Of a stretch of 64,000 bases of DNA, positions 44,881 through 54,270 are shown in pieces. Position numbers and translations under genes: made by a program. Under the pieces are notes generated by a model, which was not told the origin of the DNA, did not search any database, and was given only the letters and a program-made list of their open reading frames with translations. The stretch spans positions 500,519-564,518 of the forward strand of contig NZ_KQ948425.1 of NCBI RefSeq assembly GCF_001514065.1, in the 5' to 3' direction. This DNA is from Streptomyces antibioticus. GTDB taxonomy: Bacteria > Actinomycetota > Actinomycetes > Streptomycetales > Streptomycetaceae. Position 1 is the stretch's first letter; the number at the start of each line of letters is the position of its first letter.

Positions 44881-47800
44881 AAAAGGGAATGGATTCCTCC
44901 GGTGCGGGTGTGAGGCTGCGAGTCCTCGGTCCGCTACGGGTGTGGCGCGACGGTGTGGAATGGGACGCCGGGCCTCCGCAACAGGCGTATCTGCTCGCCG
45001 TTCTCCTGGCCCGTGCGGGCGAGCCGGTCAGTACGGGCGAGTTGGTGGACCTCATCTGGGCCGAGGACGTCCCGGTCTCGGCGGTCAACATTCTCCAGAA
45101 GTACGTCGGCGCGCTGCGGCGCCTGCTGGAGCCGGCGCTGCCCGGGCGTGCACCCGGTTCGTACCTGCAACGCCGCGGTGGCGCCTACCTGTTCGTGGCC
45201 GATGCCGAGACGTTGGACGTCGTCAGGTTCCGTGAACTCCTCGCCACGGCCCGCAGCGGCGTCGAGGAGCAGCGGCTCGAAGCGGCGCTCGACGAGTATC
45301 TGGAGGCCGTGCGGCTCTGGGACGGTCCGGCCGGGGACGGAGTCGCCCACGGTGCCGGCGGGATGGCGATCTTCGCGGGGCTGGACGACGAGTTCCGCCA
45401 CGCCTGCGTTGCGGCGGCCGATCTGGCGACCACGCTCGGCCGGCCCGAACAGGTGCTCCCGTCTCTGCACATGGCCGCCCGCATGGCGCCGCTGCACGAG
45501 ACGGTGCAAGCCAGTCTCATCGCCGCGCTGGCCGCCGCCGGCCGGCCCGCCGAAGCGCTGTCGGTGTTCCGGACCGTGCGCGCCCGGCTCGCCGAGGAAC
45601 TGGGCATCGATCCCGGCCCGGCCCTGGTGGCGGCCCACCTGCGAGTGCTGGAGCGGGCACCGGCCGAGCACACGTCGCCCGAGCGGTCGGCGGCACCCTC
45701 CGCGGCAGCGCTGAGCGCCGACCACCTGGTCGGCCGGACCGAGGAACTGGCCGTGGTGCGACACACGGTGGAATCGGCACTCGCCGGCTCGACGGGGATC
45801 GTGATCGTCGAAGGAGAACCCGGAGTGGGCAAGACATCCCTGCTCGAAGAGGTCGCTGCCGAGGCCGGCCGGCGGGGCGCGCTGGTCGTGTGGGGCCATT
45901 GCCTGCCGGGGGACGGCACGCCGTCCATGTGGCCCTGGGTGCAGATCGTCGGCGCGCTCCTGGATGACGTACCGGCCGAAGCGCGCGAGGAATGGCAGGC
46001 GGGCGAGCTCGGCCGTCTCGTGACGCCGTACGGCGGCGGCCCCGCGACATCGGTGCTGCCGGACAGCGGCGTCCGGTTCCGCTTCTTCGAGCAGGCCGTC
46101 GCGCTCGTCCGCCGGGTGTCGGCGCGGCGGCCGGTGATGCTCGTGGTCGACGACCTCCAGTGGGCCGATGCCGCCTCGCTGGACCTGCTCGGTCACCTCA
46201 TGGCCCGGCTGCCGGACGGCACGGTCGTGATCGGAGCGCTCCGCGACCGTGCGCCCGCACCGAGCTCGGAACTGGGGCGGATGCTCGCCGCGGCGAGTCG
46301 GCTCCCCCGGCACCGCAGGATTCCGCTCGGCCCGCTCGACCCGGCCGAAGTCGCCGAACTCGTGCGCCGGGAAACGGGCCAGGACCCGGGGCCGGACGGC
46401 ACCCGCCTCATCCACACCCGCACCGCCGGCAACCCCTTCTTCGTCCGTGAGCTGTCCCGGTTCCTCGCCGACGGCGACGGCGCCGTCCTCTCGGAGGCCA
46501 CCGCGGCCCGGACCACGGTGCCGGCCACCGTCCGGGACGTCGTCCGCGACCGGATGACCGTGCTGGGGGAGGACGCCCGGAGCCTGGTGCGGCTCGCCGC
46601 GCTGATCGGCCGTTCCGTCGACCTCGCGCTGCTGGCCCGCGCGTCCGGTCTCGACTACGAGACGTGTCTGACCGGCCTCGAGTCCTGCGAAGGGCTCGGG
46701 CTGCTGCGGCCCTCGCCCGGGGACCCGTACGCGTTCGGCTTTTTGCACGACCTGGTCCGCGAATCGGTGGCCGAGGACATACCGCCGCCGCGCGCGGCCC
46801 GGCTGCACCTGCGGATCGCCGACTCCCTGGAGGACCGGGCCACGGACACCGAGCAGGTGGCCGAGCGCCTCGCCCACCACCTGTGGTCCGCCGGACCGCT
46901 CGCGGACCCGGCCCGCACCGCGGCCGCACTGGTGCGGGCCGGCCGCTGCGCGGCGGGAAAGTCGGCGTTCAAGGCCGCCGCACGACAGCTGCGGTCCGCC
47001 GCGCAGGTAGCGCGGGGAGCGGGCCTGGCGGAGCTGGAACTGTACGCCCTGTCGGTCTTCACCGCGGTGGGCGGGATACGGGCGGGGCAACTCGGTTCGA
47101 CGCCGGAATCGTTGGAGCGGGCCGAGCACCTGGCACGTGACCTGGGCCAGGAACGGGAGGCCGCCGACTTCCTCTTCGCCCGGTGGGCTGCGCATTCCCA
47201 GGGCATCCAGATCGACCGTGCCGGACGACTGGCACGCCGGCTGCTGGAACAGGGCGAGGCATCCGACGACCCGGTCGTCCGCACGTACGGCCAGTACGCG
47301 TGGGGCATCCACCAGTGGTCCATCGGCGACATCGGCGAGGCGTTCCGGTACTTGAGCCGGACCGGATCGGCCGTGTTCGACGACCTGGCCCCCGGCGGGG
47401 CGAACCCGCTGCGGCGCGATCTACGGCTGCTCGGGCCGGTCATGCTCGCTCTGATCACCGCCCTGCACGGCGACCTCGACACGGCACGAAAGCTGTTCGA
47501 CACCATCGAGTCCGCCGCTGACGACGACCCCTATGTGATCACCGTCTGGGCCGCGTTCGCCTGCACCGCCGCAACCCTGGCCGGCGCCCCCGAGTGGGCG
47601 CTGCAAGTGGCGCCGCGGGGCATGGCCGTGGACCCGGACTTCTCCTTCTCCTTCTTCGGCAGTTACCAACGGCTGGGGCTGTGCTGGGCGCGCGCCAAGA
47701 CCGGCGACGACCCGGCCGGCGCCGCCGCCGAGGCGCAGGACCTGATCGACGCGTCGCTCTCCGACCCGCCCCGCTCGGGTCTGGCCACCTGGTACGGGTT

Positions 47801-48077
47801 CCTCGGCGAGATGTGGCTGGCGGCCGGAAAGCTGGACGAGGCCCTCGTAGCGCTCGACCGGGCGGACTCGGCCATTGACCGGTACGGCCAGCGCTCCGCC
47901 GAGGGCCTGCTGCTTCTGCTCCGGGCGCGGGTGCTGCGGGCACGTGGCGAGCCGGTCGCCGTCGTGCGCGCCGTTGCCGAGCGGGCGTACGCGCTGTCCG
48001 TCGAGCGTGAGGCCCACTTGTTCGCCCGCCGTGCCGAGGCACTGATGGCCGAGCTCTCGCGCAGCACATCCCGCTGA
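44865..48077 (+). CDS. SARP-type regulator: BTAD-AAA ATPase-TPR (AfsR-like), first paralogue
   Basis: The 1070-residue cytoplasmic regulator has an OmpR-like winged helix (about 15-105, RLRVLGPLRVWRDGVEWDAGPPQQAYLLAVLLA). A bacterial transcriptional activation domain follows (about 110-260). The AAA/STAND ATPase has Walker A G-E-P-G-V-G-K-T near residue 318 and Walker B LVVDDLQWAD near 426. A long helical TPR-like C-terminus occupies about 700-1070. Such proteins activate antibiotic or other secondary-metabolite genes, with the ATPase and TPR part receiving a signal. The ATG at 44865 has AGGAAG upstream and overlaps the HxlR stop. A near-copy follows after 147 bases. No biosynthetic cluster is adjacent. 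Confidence 0.9.
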   Translation: MRGAVKKGMDSSGAGVRLRVLGPLRVWRDGVEWDAGPPQQAYLLAVLLARAGEPVSTGELVDLIWAEDVPVSAVNILQKYVGALRRLLEPALPGRAPGSYLQRRGGAYLFVADAETLDVVRFRELLATARSGVEEQRLEAALDEYLEAVRLWDGPAGDGVAHGAGGMAIFAGLDDEFRHACVAAADLATTLGRPEQVLPSLHMAARMAPLHETVQASLIAALAAAGRPAEALSVFRTVRARLAEELGIDPGPALVAAHLRVLERAPAEHTSPERSAAPSAAALSADHLVGRTEELAVVRHTVESALAGSTGIVIVEGEPGVGKTSLLEEVAAEAGRRGALVVWGHCLPGDGTPSMWPWVQIVGALLDDVPAEAREEWQAGELGRLVTPYGGGPATSVLPDSGVRFRFFEQAVALVRRVSARRPVMLVVDDLQWADAASLDLLGHLMARLPDGTVVIGALRDRAPAPSSELGRMLAAASRLPRHRRIPLGPLDPAEVAELVRRETGQDPGPDGTRLIHTRTAGNPFFVRELSRFLADGDGAVLSEATAARTTVPATVRDVVRDRMTVLGEDARSLVRLAALIGRSVDLALLARASGLDYETCLTGLESCEGLGLLRPSPGDPYAFGFLHDLVRESVAEDIPPPRAARLHLRIADSLEDRATDTEQVAERLAHHLWSAGPLADPARTAAALVRAGRCAAGKSAFKAAARQLRSAAQVARGAGLAELELYALSVFTAVGGIRAGQLGSTPESLERAEHLARDLGQEREAADFLFARWAAHSQGIQIDRAGRLARRLLEQGEASDDPVVRTYGQYAWGIHQWSIGDIGEAFRYLSRTGSAVFDDLAPGGANPLRRDLRLLGPVMLALITALHGDLDTARKLFDTIESAADDDPYVITVWAAFACTAATLAGAPEWALQVAPRGMAVDPDFSFSFFGSYQRLGLCWARAKTGDDPAGAAAEAQDLIDASLSDPPRSGLATWYGFLGEMWLAAGKLDEALVALDRADSAIDRYGQRSAEGLLLLLRARVLRARGEPVAVVRAVAERAYALSVEREAHLFARRAEALMAELSRSTSR

Positions 48078-48197
48078 CTCGGGCTCCCCGTTTCGCCACG
48101 AGGGCAGCGCCCAGCGGCCGTTCCGGGCAGATGGCCCCGGCTCGCGGACCGACAGTAAAGTGGCTGCGCCACAGTCGATGGGGATCGGCCTGTGCGT

Positions 48198-48221
48198 GGG
48201 GGTGGGGGTGGGGGTGGGGGT
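48198..48221 (+). promoter_or_regulatory. G-quadruplex-forming repeat at the ribosome-binding site of the second SARP gene
   Basis: Four runs of five G (48198-48202, 48204-48208, 48210-48214, 48216-48220) are separated by single T residues, a four-unit GGGGGT repeat. It ends 4 bases before the ATG at 48225 and includes the purine-rich Shine-Dalgarno region. In the mRNA it meets the strictest sequence criteria for a very stable parallel quadruplex. It could also vary in length by slippage. Confidence 0.75.
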
Positions 48222-48224
48222 GGC

Positions 48225-51200
48225 ATGACGTCCTCCGGGGGACAACTGCGTCTCCAGATTCTCGGTCCGCTCCGGATCTGGCGGGACGGCGTCGAACTGG
48301 ACGCCGGGCCCCGACAACAGGCGTATCTCCTCGCGGTGCTGCTGGCCCGGGCCGGCGAGCCGGTCAGCACGAGTGAGCTGGTCGATCTGATCTGGGACCA
48401 GGACGTCCCGTCGTCGGCCCTGAACATTCTCCAGAAGTACGTCGGCGCCCTGCGGCGACTGCTGGAACCCGCGCTGCCCGCGCGGGACACCGGCGCCTAC
48501 CTCCAGCGCCGAGGCAACGGTTACCTCTTCGCGGCCGCTCCCGGCACGCTCGACGTCCTCACGTTCCGGGAGCTGGTCGACGCGGCCGAGGCCGGCGGCT
48601 CGGAGCAACGGCCCGACGTGGCGCTCGACTTCTACGTCCGGGCGCTCGATCTGTGGCACGCCTCCGCCGGCGACGGACTGCTCCACGGGCCGGCATCGGT
48701 GCCCGTCTTCGCGGCCCTGGACGCCGAGTTGTACGTCGCGTGCGTGGCTGCGACCAAGCTGGCGACAGCGCTCGGGCAGCCTGAACGCGTGCTGCGGCCG
48801 CTGCGGCTGGCCGCCCGTATGGCGCCGCTGCACGAGACGGTGCAGGCCGGGCTCGTCTCGGCCCTGGCCGCCGCGGGCCGGCAGGCGGAAGCCCTGGCGG
48901 TCTTCCAGGCCGTTCGGGCCCGGCTCGTCGAGGAGTTGGGCCTCGACCCCGGCCCGGAGCTGCTGGCCGCGCAGCGGCGCGTGCTGGACGGGGCACCGGC
49001 CGGCAGGACACCCTCTGAGCGGCCGTCGGACCTTGATGGTGGAACCTCGTCGGACGGCCGACTGGTGGGCCGGGTCGAGGAGTTGGCGGTGCTGCGGCAG
49101 GCCGTGGAGTCGGCTCTTGCGGGGGGCACGGGTCTGGTCGTCGTCGAGGGCGAACCAGGGGTGGGCAAGACCCGGCTGCTGGAGGAGGCGGGCGCCGAGG
49201 CGGACCGGCGGGGCGCCCAGGTGGTCTGGGGCCGGTGTCTGGAGGGGGACGGCACGCCGTCGATGTGGCCATGGGTGCAGGTGGTCGGGGCGCTGCTCGC
49301 CACCCTGCCCGTCATGGCACACAAGGAGTGGCAAGCCGGTGAACTCGGCCGCCTCCTGGGACAGCACGGGAATGTCCCCGCCTCGCCGGTCCTGCCGGAC
49401 AGCGGTGCCCGGTTCCGCCTGTTCGAACAGACCGTCGCGCTCGTTCGGCAGGCATCGGCACGGCGGCCGGTCGTGCTGGTCGTCGACGACCTTCAGTGGG
49501 CCGACGCCGCCTCACTCGAGCTGTTCAGCCACCTGGCGGCTCGCCTGCCGCACGGCGCCGGCCTGACCGGCGTCCTTCGCGACCGCGCGCCGATACCCGG
49601 TTCGGAACTGGAGCGGATGCTCGCCGCGACAAGCCGGCTGCCCCGCCACCGCCGCATCCGGCTGGGCCCGCTCGGCCCGACCGAAGTGGCCGAACTGGTC
49701 CGTCAGGAGACCGGCCAGGATCCCGGCCCCGGTGCGACGCGCACCATCCACGAGCGAACCGCCGGCAACCCCTTCTTCGTCCGGGAACTGTCCCGCTTCC
49801 TCGCCGACCGCAGCGTCCTCACCGAGGCCGCCACGACACCGGCGGGGGTGCCCGCCAGCGTCCGGGATGTCGTGCGCGACCGGATGGCGAAGCTGGACGA
49901 CGCGGACGTACGACTGCTCCAGATCGCGGCGCTGATCGGCCGCGACATCGACCTCGCCCTGCTCTCGCGCGCCGCCGGTCTCCCCGTACAGACCTGCCTC
50001 GACCGTCTGGGGCCCTTGCAGGAACTCGGCCTCCTGGAGCCGTCGTTCCGGAACCCGTACGCGTTCCGCTTCGCTCATGACCTGGTGCGTGAGTCCGTCG
50101 TCGGGGCCACACCGCCACCGCGGGCGACCCGGCTGCACGCGCTCGTCGCGGATGCCCTGGAGCAGCACACGACGACGGACGACGAGCGCCTCGCTCATCA
50201 TCTGTGGGCGGCCGGCCCGCTCGCGGACCCGGCCCGCACCGCCGCCGCCCTGATCCGCGCGGGTCGCTGCGCGGCGGGCAAGTCGGCGTTCGAGGCCGCC
50301 GCGCAACAGCTGCGATCGGCCGCGCAGGTAGCGCGGAGAGCGGGGCTGGCGGAGCTGGAGCTGTCCGCGCTGTCGCTCTTCATCGCGGTCGACGGGATGC
50401 GGGCGGGATATGTGGGTGCGGCGCTCGAACTGCTGGAGCGGGCCGAGCACCTCGCCCGTGCCCTCGGCCGGGAGCGGGAGACCACGGACTTCCTCTTCTC
50501 CCGCTGGGCCGCCCACTCCCAGGGCATCCGACTCGACCGCGCCGGACGACTGGCACGACAGCTGCTGGAACAGGGCGAGGCCTCCGCCGACCCGGTCGTC
50601 CGCACCTATGGCCGGCACGCGTGGGGCATCCACCAATGGGACGTCGGCAACATCGGCGAGGCGTTCCGCTATCTGAGCCGGAGCCGCTCCACCATGCTCG
50701 ACGACCTGGCCGACGTCGGGGAGGACACGCTCCGGCGCGATCTGCGCCTGCTGGGCCCCGCCATGCTCGCGCTGATGACAGCGCTGCACGGCGACACCGA
50801 CACGGCACGGACACTGTTCGACACGATCGAGACCACCGCTGACGGCGACGCCTACGTGCTCACCGTCTGGGCCGCCTTCGCCTGTACGGCCGCGGCACTC
50901 GCCGGCGACCCGGTGAGGGCGCTGCACACCGCCGAGCGGGGCAGCGCCCTGGACCCGGAGTTCTCCTTCGTCTTCTTGGGCAGCTATCAGCGGCTGGCGC
51001 AGTGCTGGGCTCATGCCGTGACCGGCGAGGACCCGGCCGGATCGGCGGCGGAGGCACAGCGCCTGATCACCACGGCGCTGGCCGACCCACCCCGCTCCGG
51101 TCTGGCGACCTGGTACGGCCTCCTCGGCGAGATGTGGCTTGCCGAGGGCAGACTCGACGAAGCCACGGCAGCCCTCGACCGGGCCGACTCGGCCCTCGAC

Positions 51201-51389
51201 ACGCACGGCCAGCGCTACGCCGAGGGCCTGTTGCTCCTGTTGCGCGCGCGGCTGATGGGCGCCCGCGGCGCGCCGGTCGCCGCCGTGCGGGCCGCCGCCG
51301 AACGGGCCCGGGCGCTCTCCGCCGAGCGCGAGGCCCACCTCTTCGCCCGCCGCGCCGAGGAGTTGCTGGCCGGCCTCGCCGACACGTAA
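48225..51389 (+). CDS. SARP-type regulator: BTAD-AAA ATPase-TPR (AfsR-like), second paralogue
   Basis: This 1054-residue protein is a paralogue of the preceding gene and is collinear over its whole length. It has the OmpR-like helix-turn-helix LQILGPLRIWRDGVELDAGPRQQAYLLAVLLA, a BTAD, an ATPase with G-E-P-G-V-G-K-T and LVVDDLQWAD, and a TPR-like C-terminus. The ATG at 48225 replaces an upstream GTG whose extra residues would be a run of glycines encoded by the G-rich repeat. Adjacent duplication with divergence suggests two signal-input versions of one activator, or heteromers. Translation may be gated by the G-quadruplex motif at its ribosome-binding site. Target genes are not evident in the window. 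Confidence 0.9.
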   Translation: MTSSGGQLRLQILGPLRIWRDGVELDAGPRQQAYLLAVLLARAGEPVSTSELVDLIWDQDVPSSALNILQKYVGALRRLLEPALPARDTGAYLQRRGNGYLFAAAPGTLDVLTFRELVDAAEAGGSEQRPDVALDFYVRALDLWHASAGDGLLHGPASVPVFAALDAELYVACVAATKLATALGQPERVLRPLRLAARMAPLHETVQAGLVSALAAAGRQAEALAVFQAVRARLVEELGLDPGPELLAAQRRVLDGAPAGRTPSERPSDLDGGTSSDGRLVGRVEELAVLRQAVESALAGGTGLVVVEGEPGVGKTRLLEEAGAEADRRGAQVVWGRCLEGDGTPSMWPWVQVVGALLATLPVMAHKEWQAGELGRLLGQHGNVPASPVLPDSGARFRLFEQTVALVRQASARRPVVLVVDDLQWADAASLELFSHLAARLPHGAGLTGVLRDRAPIPGSELERMLAATSRLPRHRRIRLGPLGPTEVAELVRQETGQDPGPGATRTIHERTAGNPFFVRELSRFLADRSVLTEAATTPAGVPASVRDVVRDRMAKLDDADVRLLQIAALIGRDIDLALLSRAAGLPVQTCLDRLGPLQELGLLEPSFRNPYAFRFAHDLVRESVVGATPPPRATRLHALVADALEQHTTTDDERLAHHLWAAGPLADPARTAAALIRAGRCAAGKSAFEAAAQQLRSAAQVARRAGLAELELSALSLFIAVDGMRAGYVGAALELLERAEHLARALGRERETTDFLFSRWAAHSQGIRLDRAGRLARQLLEQGEASADPVVRTYGRHAWGIHQWDVGNIGEAFRYLSRSRSTMLDDLADVGEDTLRRDLRLLGPAMLALMTALHGDTDTARTLFDTIETTADGDAYVLTVWAAFACTAAALAGDPVRALHTAERGSALDPEFSFVFLGSYQRLAQCWAHAVTGEDPAGSAAEAQRLITTALADPPRSGLATWYGLLGEMWLAEGRLDEATAALDRADSALDTHGQRYAEGLLLLLRARLMGARGAPVAAVRAAAERARALSAEREAHLFARRAEELLAGLADT

Positions 51390-52389: not shown

Positions 52390-54270
52390 TCAGTGCTGTT
52401 CCGCGACGTCAACGCCGTAGCCGCGAGCGAGGTCGGCAAGGCCGTGGTCGTAGCCCTGTCCCACCGCACGCAGCCGCCAGCCGTCACCTCGGCGGTAGAG
52501 CTCGGCAAGGATCATGGTGCGCTCCGTGGTGGCCGCGTCGAGGGTGGCGCGGGCGGTCGGAGCCGCACCGACGCCGCAGGTGGCGGTGATCTCGATGGCA
52601 CCGACGTCGGCGAAGGTCGCGGCGCCGTCGATCGCAGCGGCGACGACGACCCGGTGAACCTCCAGGGGCAGCCGCTCCAGATCTGCGGTGACGGCCTGCT
52701 CCGTCGGACCGTCCACGGCGAGCCGCACGGTGCCATCGGGGTGCTCGGGCGCGCCGTAGAAGACGAAGTCCTCGTCTCCTGCCACCTGTTCGCGCGCGTC
52801 GACCGCGAAAGCGACGACGTCCACATCACACATGGCCTGCTGACGCCACACGGCGGCCACCGTCCAGGCCGCGCCGGTGTCGGTCAGGTCGAGGACGGCA
52901 CCCCGGACCAGGACCGCCGCCGGGTCCGGCCGGCTTCCGGACTCGTTCCGGGCCGACGAGGGCATTGCCGTCGTCGTGGGCGCGAGCAGCCAGTCGGCGT
53001 CGTACACGCGCAGGCCGAGCGTGGCGATACGGCTCATGCGCCGGTCCGCCTCCCCGCCGGGCAGCACCACGACGTCGGACACGCTGGCGGAGAGGTTGAC
53101 CGCCGCGGAGGCTCCCAGGGCGACGGCACGCGCGCGTGCCTCGACGGCCTCGTCGTGGGTGCCGCCCAGGACCAGGACCCTGCGCCCCGCGAGCGGCTGA
53201 TCCGCCCTGTCGGCGGACGCTGCCGGTGTCGCAGTTCGCTGTGCCGGGACAGCGGGTGCCGGGACAGCGGGTGCCGGGACAGCGGGTGCCGACGCAGGGG
53301 GTGAGGCGGGGGCAGGCGGTGAGGCGGGCGCAGCGGAGACCTGCCGGGCGGCGCCCTTGGCCTGGCCCGGCTCGACCGCCTCCAGCAGGTGCAGGTAGGT
53401 CGACTCGTCCACGAGGGGGACGCCCTCGTTCGCGGCACGCTTCAGCTTGGCGGACGCGGCGCCGGGGTCGTTGCTGACGACGACGCTGGTCTGGCCGCTG
53501 ACCGAGGTCATGATGTTGAGCCCGGCCGCCACTGAGCGGGCGACGAGTTCCTCACGAGCGACCCGGGTGTCTCCGGTGATGGCCACCTTCATCCCCTGCA
53601 CCAGCGGCCCACCCGGCTGGAGCCGACCCGGATTGCGGTACGCGCAGGGCGTCTTGGGCACGTACGGCAGGTAGTCCTGACGCGGCGGACACTCCAGGAG
53701 CGGCAAGGCCAGGCCCAGTTGCTCGGCAGCGCTCAGTGAGCCGCGCAGGATGCCGGAGAGCACCCGTACGTCGTCCTGCGCGTCGTGGGCCTTCTCCTGG
53801 CGCACGCCGTAGTGCGCGGCGAGCGTGCCCAGTTTGAGGTCGGGTGTCGCCGGCCCGACCAGACGATTGAGGGCCAGCGTGCACAGCCGCCGGCTCACCG
53901 GGACCCAGGAACGCACGTGGGCGAACTCGTGGGCCAGGAAGTCGTAGTCGAACTGCGCGTTGTGGGCGACCAGGACGCGGCTGCTGAGCAGCGCCCCCAC
54001 CTGCGGTGCGATCTCCTCGAAGGTGGGCGCGCCGGCGAGCCGGGCCGTGGTGAGGCCGTGGACATGTACCGGACCTGGATCACAGCCCGGGTTGAGAAGG
54101 GTCGAGAACTCCCCTGTCTGGTTGCCCTGTGCGTCCAACGTGAGGACCGCCAGCGAGAGGACACGGTCGCGGCCCGGTCTCAGCCCGGACGTCTCCACGT
54201 CCACCAGCGCCCACTCGTGGAAGTAGTCGGGCAGGGTCGGCCACTTCGGGCTCGACGACAGCAGGGCCAT
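52390..54270 (-). CDS. DEDDh exonuclease - BRCT - TerD fusion protein
   Basis: The 626-residue cytoplasmic protein joins four parts. The first is a DnaQ-like 3'-5' exonuclease (about 15-185) with V-D-V-E-T-S-G, A-H-N-A-Q-F-D-Y-D and H-D-A-Q-D-D. The second is a BRCT domain (about 230-305, MKVAITGDTRVAREELVARS). The third is a Pro-Ala linker with a second BRCT-like segment (about 355-430). The fourth is a C-terminal TerD domain (about 450-620) with calcium-site-type D-E-D-F-V-F-Y-G, the TTERTMILAELYRR motif and AVGQGYDHGL. TerD proteins belong to calcium-linked stress/phage-defence (Ter) systems. A nuclease fused to BRCT and TerD suggests DNA-damage or defence work. The ATG at 54270 has GGGGGAG upstream. 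Confidence 0.88.
   Translation of the reverse strand: MALLSSSPKWPTLPDYFHEWALVDVETSGLRPGRDRVLSLAVLTLDAQGNQTGEFSTLLNPGCDPGPVHVHGLTTARLAGAPTFEEIAPQVGALLSSRVLVAHNAQFDYDFLAHEFAHVRSWVPVSRRLCTLALNRLVGPATPDLKLGTLAAHYGVRQEKAHDAQDDVRVLSGILRGSLSAAEQLGLALPLLECPPRQDYLPYVPKTPCAYRNPGRLQPGGPLVQGMKVAITGDTRVAREELVARSVAAGLNIMTSVSGQTSVVVSNDPGAASAKLKRAANEGVPLVDESTYLHLLEAVEPGQAKGAARQVSAAPASPPAPASPPASAPAVPAPAVPAPAVPAQRTATPAASADRADQPLAGRRVLVLGGTHDEAVEARARAVALGASAAVNLSASVSDVVVLPGGEADRRMSRIATLGLRVYDADWLLAPTTTAMPSSARNESGSRPDPAAVLVRGAVLDLTDTGAAWTVAAVWRQQAMCDVDVVAFAVDAREQVAGDEDFVFYGAPEHPDGTVRLAVDGPTEQAVTADLERLPLEVHRVVVAAAIDGAATFADVGAIEITATCGVGAAPTARATLDAATTERTMILAELYRRGDGWRLRAVGQGYDHGLADLARGYGVDVAEQH
53241..53285 (-). 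repeat. three exact 15-base tandem repeats in the TerD-fusion linker
   Basis: GTGCCGGGACAGCGG occurs three times in a row (53241-53255, 53256-53270, 53271-53285). On the coding strand it gives Pro-Ala-Val-Pro-Ala units of the interdomain linker, so copy-number change only alters linker length. Confidence 0.9.

Follow-up and report, generated by a model that had tools for sequence, protein, structure and literature searches.

Quadruplexes near a Shine-Dalgarno (SD) sequence have been studied in E. coli by Wieland and Hartig (2007) and by Holder and Hartig (2014); according to PMC11087576, earlier work saw translation fall when a quadruplex lay close to the SD. The inserts made for PMC11087576 itself stood 43 bp upstream of the ribosome-binding site (RBS) and raised translation; in PMC6974567, RNA quadruplex (rG4) inserts at -20 led to higher expression. 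The published bacterial 5'UTR experiments disagree on sign (PMC11087576, PMC6974567), and hence the direction of an effect at the locus described here cannot be taken from them.

This locus is the leader of a SARP-type regulator gene (SARP2) in a stretch of 64,000 nucleotides from Streptomyces antibioticus (the window, by whose first letter all positions are counted). Just before the start codon stands an array of four GGGGGT units. Like the E. coli elements described in PMC11087576, the array overlaps or adjoins the SD, where competition with 16S pairing is expected; unlike them, it is natural rather than inserted, is made of SD-like units, and is known from sequence alone rather than from measured effects. 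It shares with the translation-enhancing element of PMC11087576 the setting of a (here candidate) RNA quadruplex in a bacterial 5'UTR, although that motif lies 43 bp upstream of the RBS whereas the array is the RBS itself. The natural rG4 sites of hemL and bswR, which PMC6974567 describes beside the -20 inserts, are likewise bacterial rG4s that affect expression (again, only a candidate here), but the hemL site lies in coding sequence and has short G-runs, in contrast to the G5 runs of the SARP2 leader. In the literature on quadruplexes, SD/ribosome binding and repeat-based RBS variation, as covered by sources that leave out most subscription journals, we found no description of an element of this kind in Streptomyces. 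Loose quadruplex motifs abound in genomes of this type: for S. coelicolor, PMC5801747 gives about 120,000 occurrences of a 2-4 G quadruplex motif.

The plus strand has four exact GGGGGT units at 48198-48221, after which come GGC (48222-48224) and ATG (48225-48227); the last G5 run ends at 48220, 4 bases short of the ATG. The geometry given in the first-pass annotation (four G5 runs, single T spacers, 4 bases to the ATG) is therefore what the sequence contains, and Tandem Repeats Finder scores the array at 4.7 copies and 100%. With four runs of at least three G and loops of 1-7 nt, it is a canonical G-quadruplex motif. A regular-expression scan for G3+N1-7 motifs found 13 in the window (9 on the plus strand and 4 on the minus strand), among which only the array has G5 in all four runs. 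Its 23-nt core (48198-48220) has a G4Hunter score of 3.48, and the 12 highest plus-strand 25-nt scores of the window all fall at the array. The three-run pattern GGGGGTGGGGGTGGGGG, allowing at most one mismatch, matched the window only at the array site, in two overlapping registers, and was absent from all 100 dinucleotide-preserving shuffles. The array is exceptional in this respect, as had been proposed; that it would form an exceptionally stable quadruplex is a prediction from the motif. ViennaRNA gave energies of -108.1 with and -49.1 without the quadruplex, using a term extrapolated for five layers, so we claim no stability from them, and the literature searched, available in part, gave no usable measurement for five-layer quadruplexes with single-nucleotide loops. 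The features are collected in the following table.

Features of the SARP2 leader and its surroundings, in window coordinates
Feature	Position	Strand	Basis
(GGGGGT)x4 array: SD-like units in tandem, forming a canonical G-quadruplex motif	48198..48221	+	Direct sequence, G4Hunter, shuffles
GGGGGTGGC: final unit and most likely SD; two equal registers further 5' in the array	48216..48224	+	Register energies against CACCUCCU
SARP2: large SARP-type regulator (Trans_reg_C, BTAD, AAA_16), ATG at 48225	48225..51389	+	Pfam; ATG kept in 5/5 aligned leaders
SARP1: tandem paralogue, leader without array	44889..48077	+	ORF, Pfam, leader sequence
TAAAGT, possible -10 element	48156..48161	+	Sequence and leader alignment
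Two adjacent inverted repeats, GTGGC-TGC-GCCAC and GTCGAT-GGGG-ATCGGC (the latter at 48174..48189)	48160-48189	+	By eye
Alternative in-frame GTG start (array read as poly-Gly), disfavoured	48192..48194	+	Open frame; out of frame in four homologous leaders

SARP2 combines an OmpR-type DNA-binding domain, a BTAD domain and an ATPase domain, the composition of a large SARP-type regulator (Pfam E-values 9.9e-08 for Trans_reg_C, 5.4e-25 for BTAD and 1.7e-28 for AAA_16). Its tandem paralogue lacks the array, as previously noted: within 60 nt upstream of the SARP1 ATG at 44889, the only G-runs are a single G4 and a single G3.

The array can pair with the 3' end of 16S rRNA and is suitably spaced from the start codon, which makes it an SD by a permissive measure. 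For the anti-SD we used CACCUCC and CACCUCCU, taken to apply to this genome's 16S. Each GGGGGTG of the array can form seven base pairs with CACCUCC, including one G.U pair, and is thus a near-perfect SD. Against CACCUCCU, three 8-mers in the last 25 nt tie as best at -12.9 kcal/mol. The SARP1 leader also pairs at -12.3 kcal/mol, so this measure does not discriminate between leaders.

DNA searches of 392 genus genomes, 394 family genomes (the two sets partly overlapping) and seven genomes reached through homologues found four other leaders that align with ours: those of G228, G498, A. glaucinigra (G410) and S. fuscichromogenes (G409, at a contig end). A repeated genus search around G228 found no further genome with a strong match, and G505, with matches at almost the same contig places as A. 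glaucinigra, was counted with it as one. By blastn, the first three are 76.5-77.9% identical to 48079-48300 (from 48090 in A. glaucinigra); the S. fuscichromogenes match starts only at 48232, and its leader was aligned by MAFFT. G228, G498 and A. glaucinigra have G-runs in the corresponding position ahead of the shared ATG. In place of our four G5 runs and GGC, the tract reads GTGGGGGTAGGGGTGGGG in G228 and GTAGGGGTAGGGGTGGGC in G498 (three runs each), GGGGGTTGGGGTAGGGGTGGGC in A. glaucinigra (four runs) and GAGGAGGAGTGGGAACAGGC in S. fuscichromogenes, the last with the classical GAGGAGGAG. Identity is 82-91% at the aligned tract positions (18-20 of 22), 70-74% in the remaining intergenic sequence and 87-88% over the opening 60 nt of the coding sequence (CDS). 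The length of the tract differs between species, which agrees with the earlier proposal that it is variable.

Over the last 25 nt, G4Hunter scores are 2.88 for our leader, 1.84 for G228, 1.60 for G498, 2.24 for A. glaucinigra and 0.76 for S. fuscichromogenes; anti-SD duplex energies are, in the same order, -14.9, -11.9, -11.9, -11.9 and -12.2 kcal/mol. Four of the five leaders are thus G-rich (best 25-nt G4Hunter of at least 1.5), and a three-tetrad motif is present in two, ours and that of A. glaucinigra, so the quadruplex motif itself is not kept across the homologous leaders. The second-SARP proteins of G228, G498 and A. glaucinigra share 88-92% identity among themselves, and these genomes therefore do not count as independent witnesses. 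The G-rich RBS tract is a trait of this subgroup whose full quadruplex strength has not been kept, and of the leaders compared, only that of this genome has the perfect four-unit array.

We also compared a wider set of homologues, 77 distinct loci from the best 80 of 111 relatives. The leader table has 80 rows (the window, 74 of the 77 loci and five more distant whole-genome loci); L047, L048 and L112 were left out because they do not reach the N-terminus, and two homologues at 51% in the plasmid collection were not used. Among the 74 wider leaders (best 80 of 111 relatives), positions -100 to +3 contained no G5T array, no canonical quadruplex motif and no 25-nt segment with a G4Hunter score of at least 1.5; most of these leaders cannot be aligned with ours, so this is absence rather than loss. 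The quadruplex search upstream of SARP orthologues that had been proposed as a check thus gives the motif in two of the five subgroup leaders and in none of the wider set from the best 80 of 111 relatives.

These leaders also bear on whether the array is translated. Upstream of the ATG, the SARP2 frame stays open as far as GTG 48192; read from there, GTG CGT and the array would encode Met-Arg-Gly9 ahead of the Met of the ATG. We considered this start seriously: the hexamer preserves the frame, a GGGGA 7 nt before the GTG offers anti-SD pairing of -8.4 kcal/mol, 29 of 49 classified G5T arrays elsewhere are coding, and a three-run array of the same genome reads poly-Gly inside a long open frame. 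However, the position equivalent to the GTG is 22 nt from the ATG in all four relatives and 33 nt here, so this frame is not common to them. An in-frame stop stands 21 nt before the ATG in three of the four (G228, G498 and S. fuscichromogenes; in A. glaucinigra the first is at -60), and the pairing 5' of GTG 48192 is weaker than at the array. Given these leaders, we judged a coding array unlikely. The spacing and the stops indicate that the array is most likely untranslated leader and contains the SD; with moderate confidence, SARP2 starts at ATG 48225. That the array covers the SARP2 RBS, as originally proposed, is then most likely correct, with the array itself being the SD in repeated form. 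In the relatives, in-frame GTG codons lie inside the tract (e.g. at -18 and -6 in G228 and G498), and partial translation of their G-tract from these is possible.

The first-pass annotation had further raised the possibility of a translation switch that depends on potassium, a helicase or a ligand; as a selected device of this kind, an RNA quadruplex would open and close access to the SARP2 RBS. The window's strongest motif does lie exactly at the SD, a G-rich tract occurs in 4/5 subgroup leaders against 0/74 wider homologues (best 80 of 111 relatives), the A. glaucinigra leader also has the three-tetrad motif, and PMC11087576 and PMC6974567 describe altered expression from rG4s located at bacterial start sites or close to them. 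Yet the full motif is missing from three of the five leaders, one of which has an ordinary GAGGAGGAG. Rfam covariance models, for riboswitches and other RNAs, gave no match over 47900-48500 at E-values up to 1. We found no evidence of a response to potassium and no sign connecting the leader with a ligand or a helicase. In addition, the hexamer is a sporadic microsatellite elsewhere (43 of 295 genomes), mostly at unrelated coding positions. A dedicated switch thus seems quite improbable.

Of 295 genus genomes sampled, 43 carry arrays of four or more G5 runs. This genome has them at two places, with a three-run array at a third. We counted 52 array clusters by hand (an adjacent pair in G252 as one) and classified 49 (L001, L114-L163 and the window); the census is without the arrays of G287, G058 and G304 and the three-run array of this genome on C5. 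Gene calls came from a codon model for which 91 blast segments of SARP homologues served as the training set. The C-rich strand is coding in 26 of the 49 arrays, as Thr-Pro (22) or Pro-His (4) repeats, and the G-rich strand in three; the remaining 20 lie outside predicted CDS, and some of these 20 calls may be wrong. Among arrays in CDS, the C-rich strand is therefore the one in the mRNA by 26 to 3 (binomial p 1.5e-5), a bias in which the usefulness of Thr-Pro and the avoidance of G-rich mRNA are confounded, since the two strands encode different peptides. Only the SARP2 array is in sense orientation within 100 nt upstream of a predicted start (1/49); three others lie 241-523 nt upstream of one. 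The SARP2 array thus shares its hexamer and its four or more runs with the genus microsatellites (GGGGGT)n / (ACCCCC)n but differs from most of them, which are in CDS with the C-rich strand coding, by being G-rich in the sense strand of a leader.

A looser "G-tract then ATG" pattern matched in 81 of 150 genomes. Of the 30 loci listed, 21 are antisense in CDS, three are sense in CDS, five are other and one is near a predicted start, the last through a match 350 nt off the locus centre and so not the listed one. The SARP2 site does not fit this pattern. The backwards control ends in GTA, is not clean and was left out of use. The other two arrays of this genome lie at L001 1501-1529 (G000:C3:412021-412049) and L006 1501-1517 (G000:C5:191762-191778). 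The first has five runs and is antisense to a gene start, its opposite strand giving THRTPTPTPTPTPTST from about 19 nt after the predicted start; the second is the three-run array, which reads poly-Gly on the G-rich strand.

As a perfect short tandem repeat at a control site, the array has the form of a contingency locus, where frequent slippage in unit number would be selected as an expression rheostat or phase-variable switch. A perfect hexamer array at an RBS and a tract length that differs between species are what such a locus would show, and PMC12344412 reports GnT motifs as T-to-G hotspots in Salmonella and P. fluorescens. By analogy, such hotspots, if active in Streptomyces, would destabilise the array by substitution too. 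However, four units are short, the 11 nt difference to the relatives is not a whole number of units, across the genus such arrays show no preference for RBS positions (1/49), and the comparison covered one genome per species. We regard a contingency locus as very unlikely.

The explanation we favour, and consider probable, is that the G-rich SD of SARP2 expanded as a microsatellite in this lineage, with constitutive mild dampening rather than a dedicated switch. The earlier state would have been a G-rich leader of the kind GGGGTAGGGGTGGGC-ATG, as in the relatives, already with two SD-like hexamers in tandem, from which slippage and substitutions would have produced four perfect units; the same 11 nt difference counts against expansion by whole units. 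If transcription runs through the array, as we infer, translation would start at ATG 48225 with the 16S anti-SD pairing with any of several equivalent GGGGGTG registers. The same guanines could fold as a quadruplex in the mRNA, and folding and 30S binding would then be mutually exclusive. Overall, SARP2 translation would be altered constitutively, most likely towards mild dampening if the RNA folds, and the tract would persist mainly because it works as an SD. The array appears to be a G-rich SD that underwent a rare expansion specific to this lineage, with a quadruplex effect that is testable but unproven.

The contrast between 4/5 G-rich leaders in the subgroup and 0/74 in the wider set (best 80 of 111 relatives) may also indicate maintenance beyond plain SD function, an argument limited by three of the four G-rich leaders coming from close relatives (88-92% protein identity). 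Together with the full three-tetrad motif in two leaders, this contrast lies behind a further idea, that the RBS competes with itself: each unit would be both an anti-SD partner and a quadruplex strand, and unit number would set the balance between 30S binding and the quadruplex, as an evolvable rheostat in this SARP subgroup. We consider this idea rather unlikely.

If the RNA folds, this expanded SD would be a natural example of an SD and a quadruplex built from the same bases, and would offer a simple way to ask whether quadruplexes at start sites are tolerated or used by high-GC bacteria. Should it prove inert, the five leaders would still be a ready series for relating G-run number to initiation, ranging from GAGGAGGAG over three G-runs up to four G5 runs. 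The locus also calls for caution: a G-rich SD and a microsatellite can together yield a striking quadruplex motif as a by-product.

SARP2 and its relatives differ in similarity along their length. The proteins of G228, G498 and A. glaucinigra are 79-83% identical to SARP2 over the first 100 residues and 59-63% overall, and an S. fuscichromogenes fragment starting at residue 175 is 79% identical to it. From these values, the leader and N-terminus may have a different history from the gene body, and a mosaic formed by recombination between paralogues is possible. The S. fuscichromogenes contigs L047, L048, L224 and L225 break in the 5' part of a SARP gene, two beginning at residue 175 and two ending near residue 29, as expected if near-identical paralogues have that stretch in common.

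A consensus promoter scan upstream of SARP2 found none, and we therefore dropped promoter spacing as a means of choosing the start codon. The TAAAGT is identical in G228 and G498, reads TAAAGC in A. glaucinigra and is not kept in S. fuscichromogenes. The two inverted repeats, in part conserved among the relatives, could be an operator or a leader hairpin; GTCGAT-GGGG-ATCGGC, just 5' of the array, seems weakly kept in the relatives when the alignment is read by eye. Further downstream, a 15-nt tandem repeat (53241-53291, 3.4 perfect copies) lies in the minus-strand ORF 52390-54270 and encodes a PAVPA-type protein repeat.
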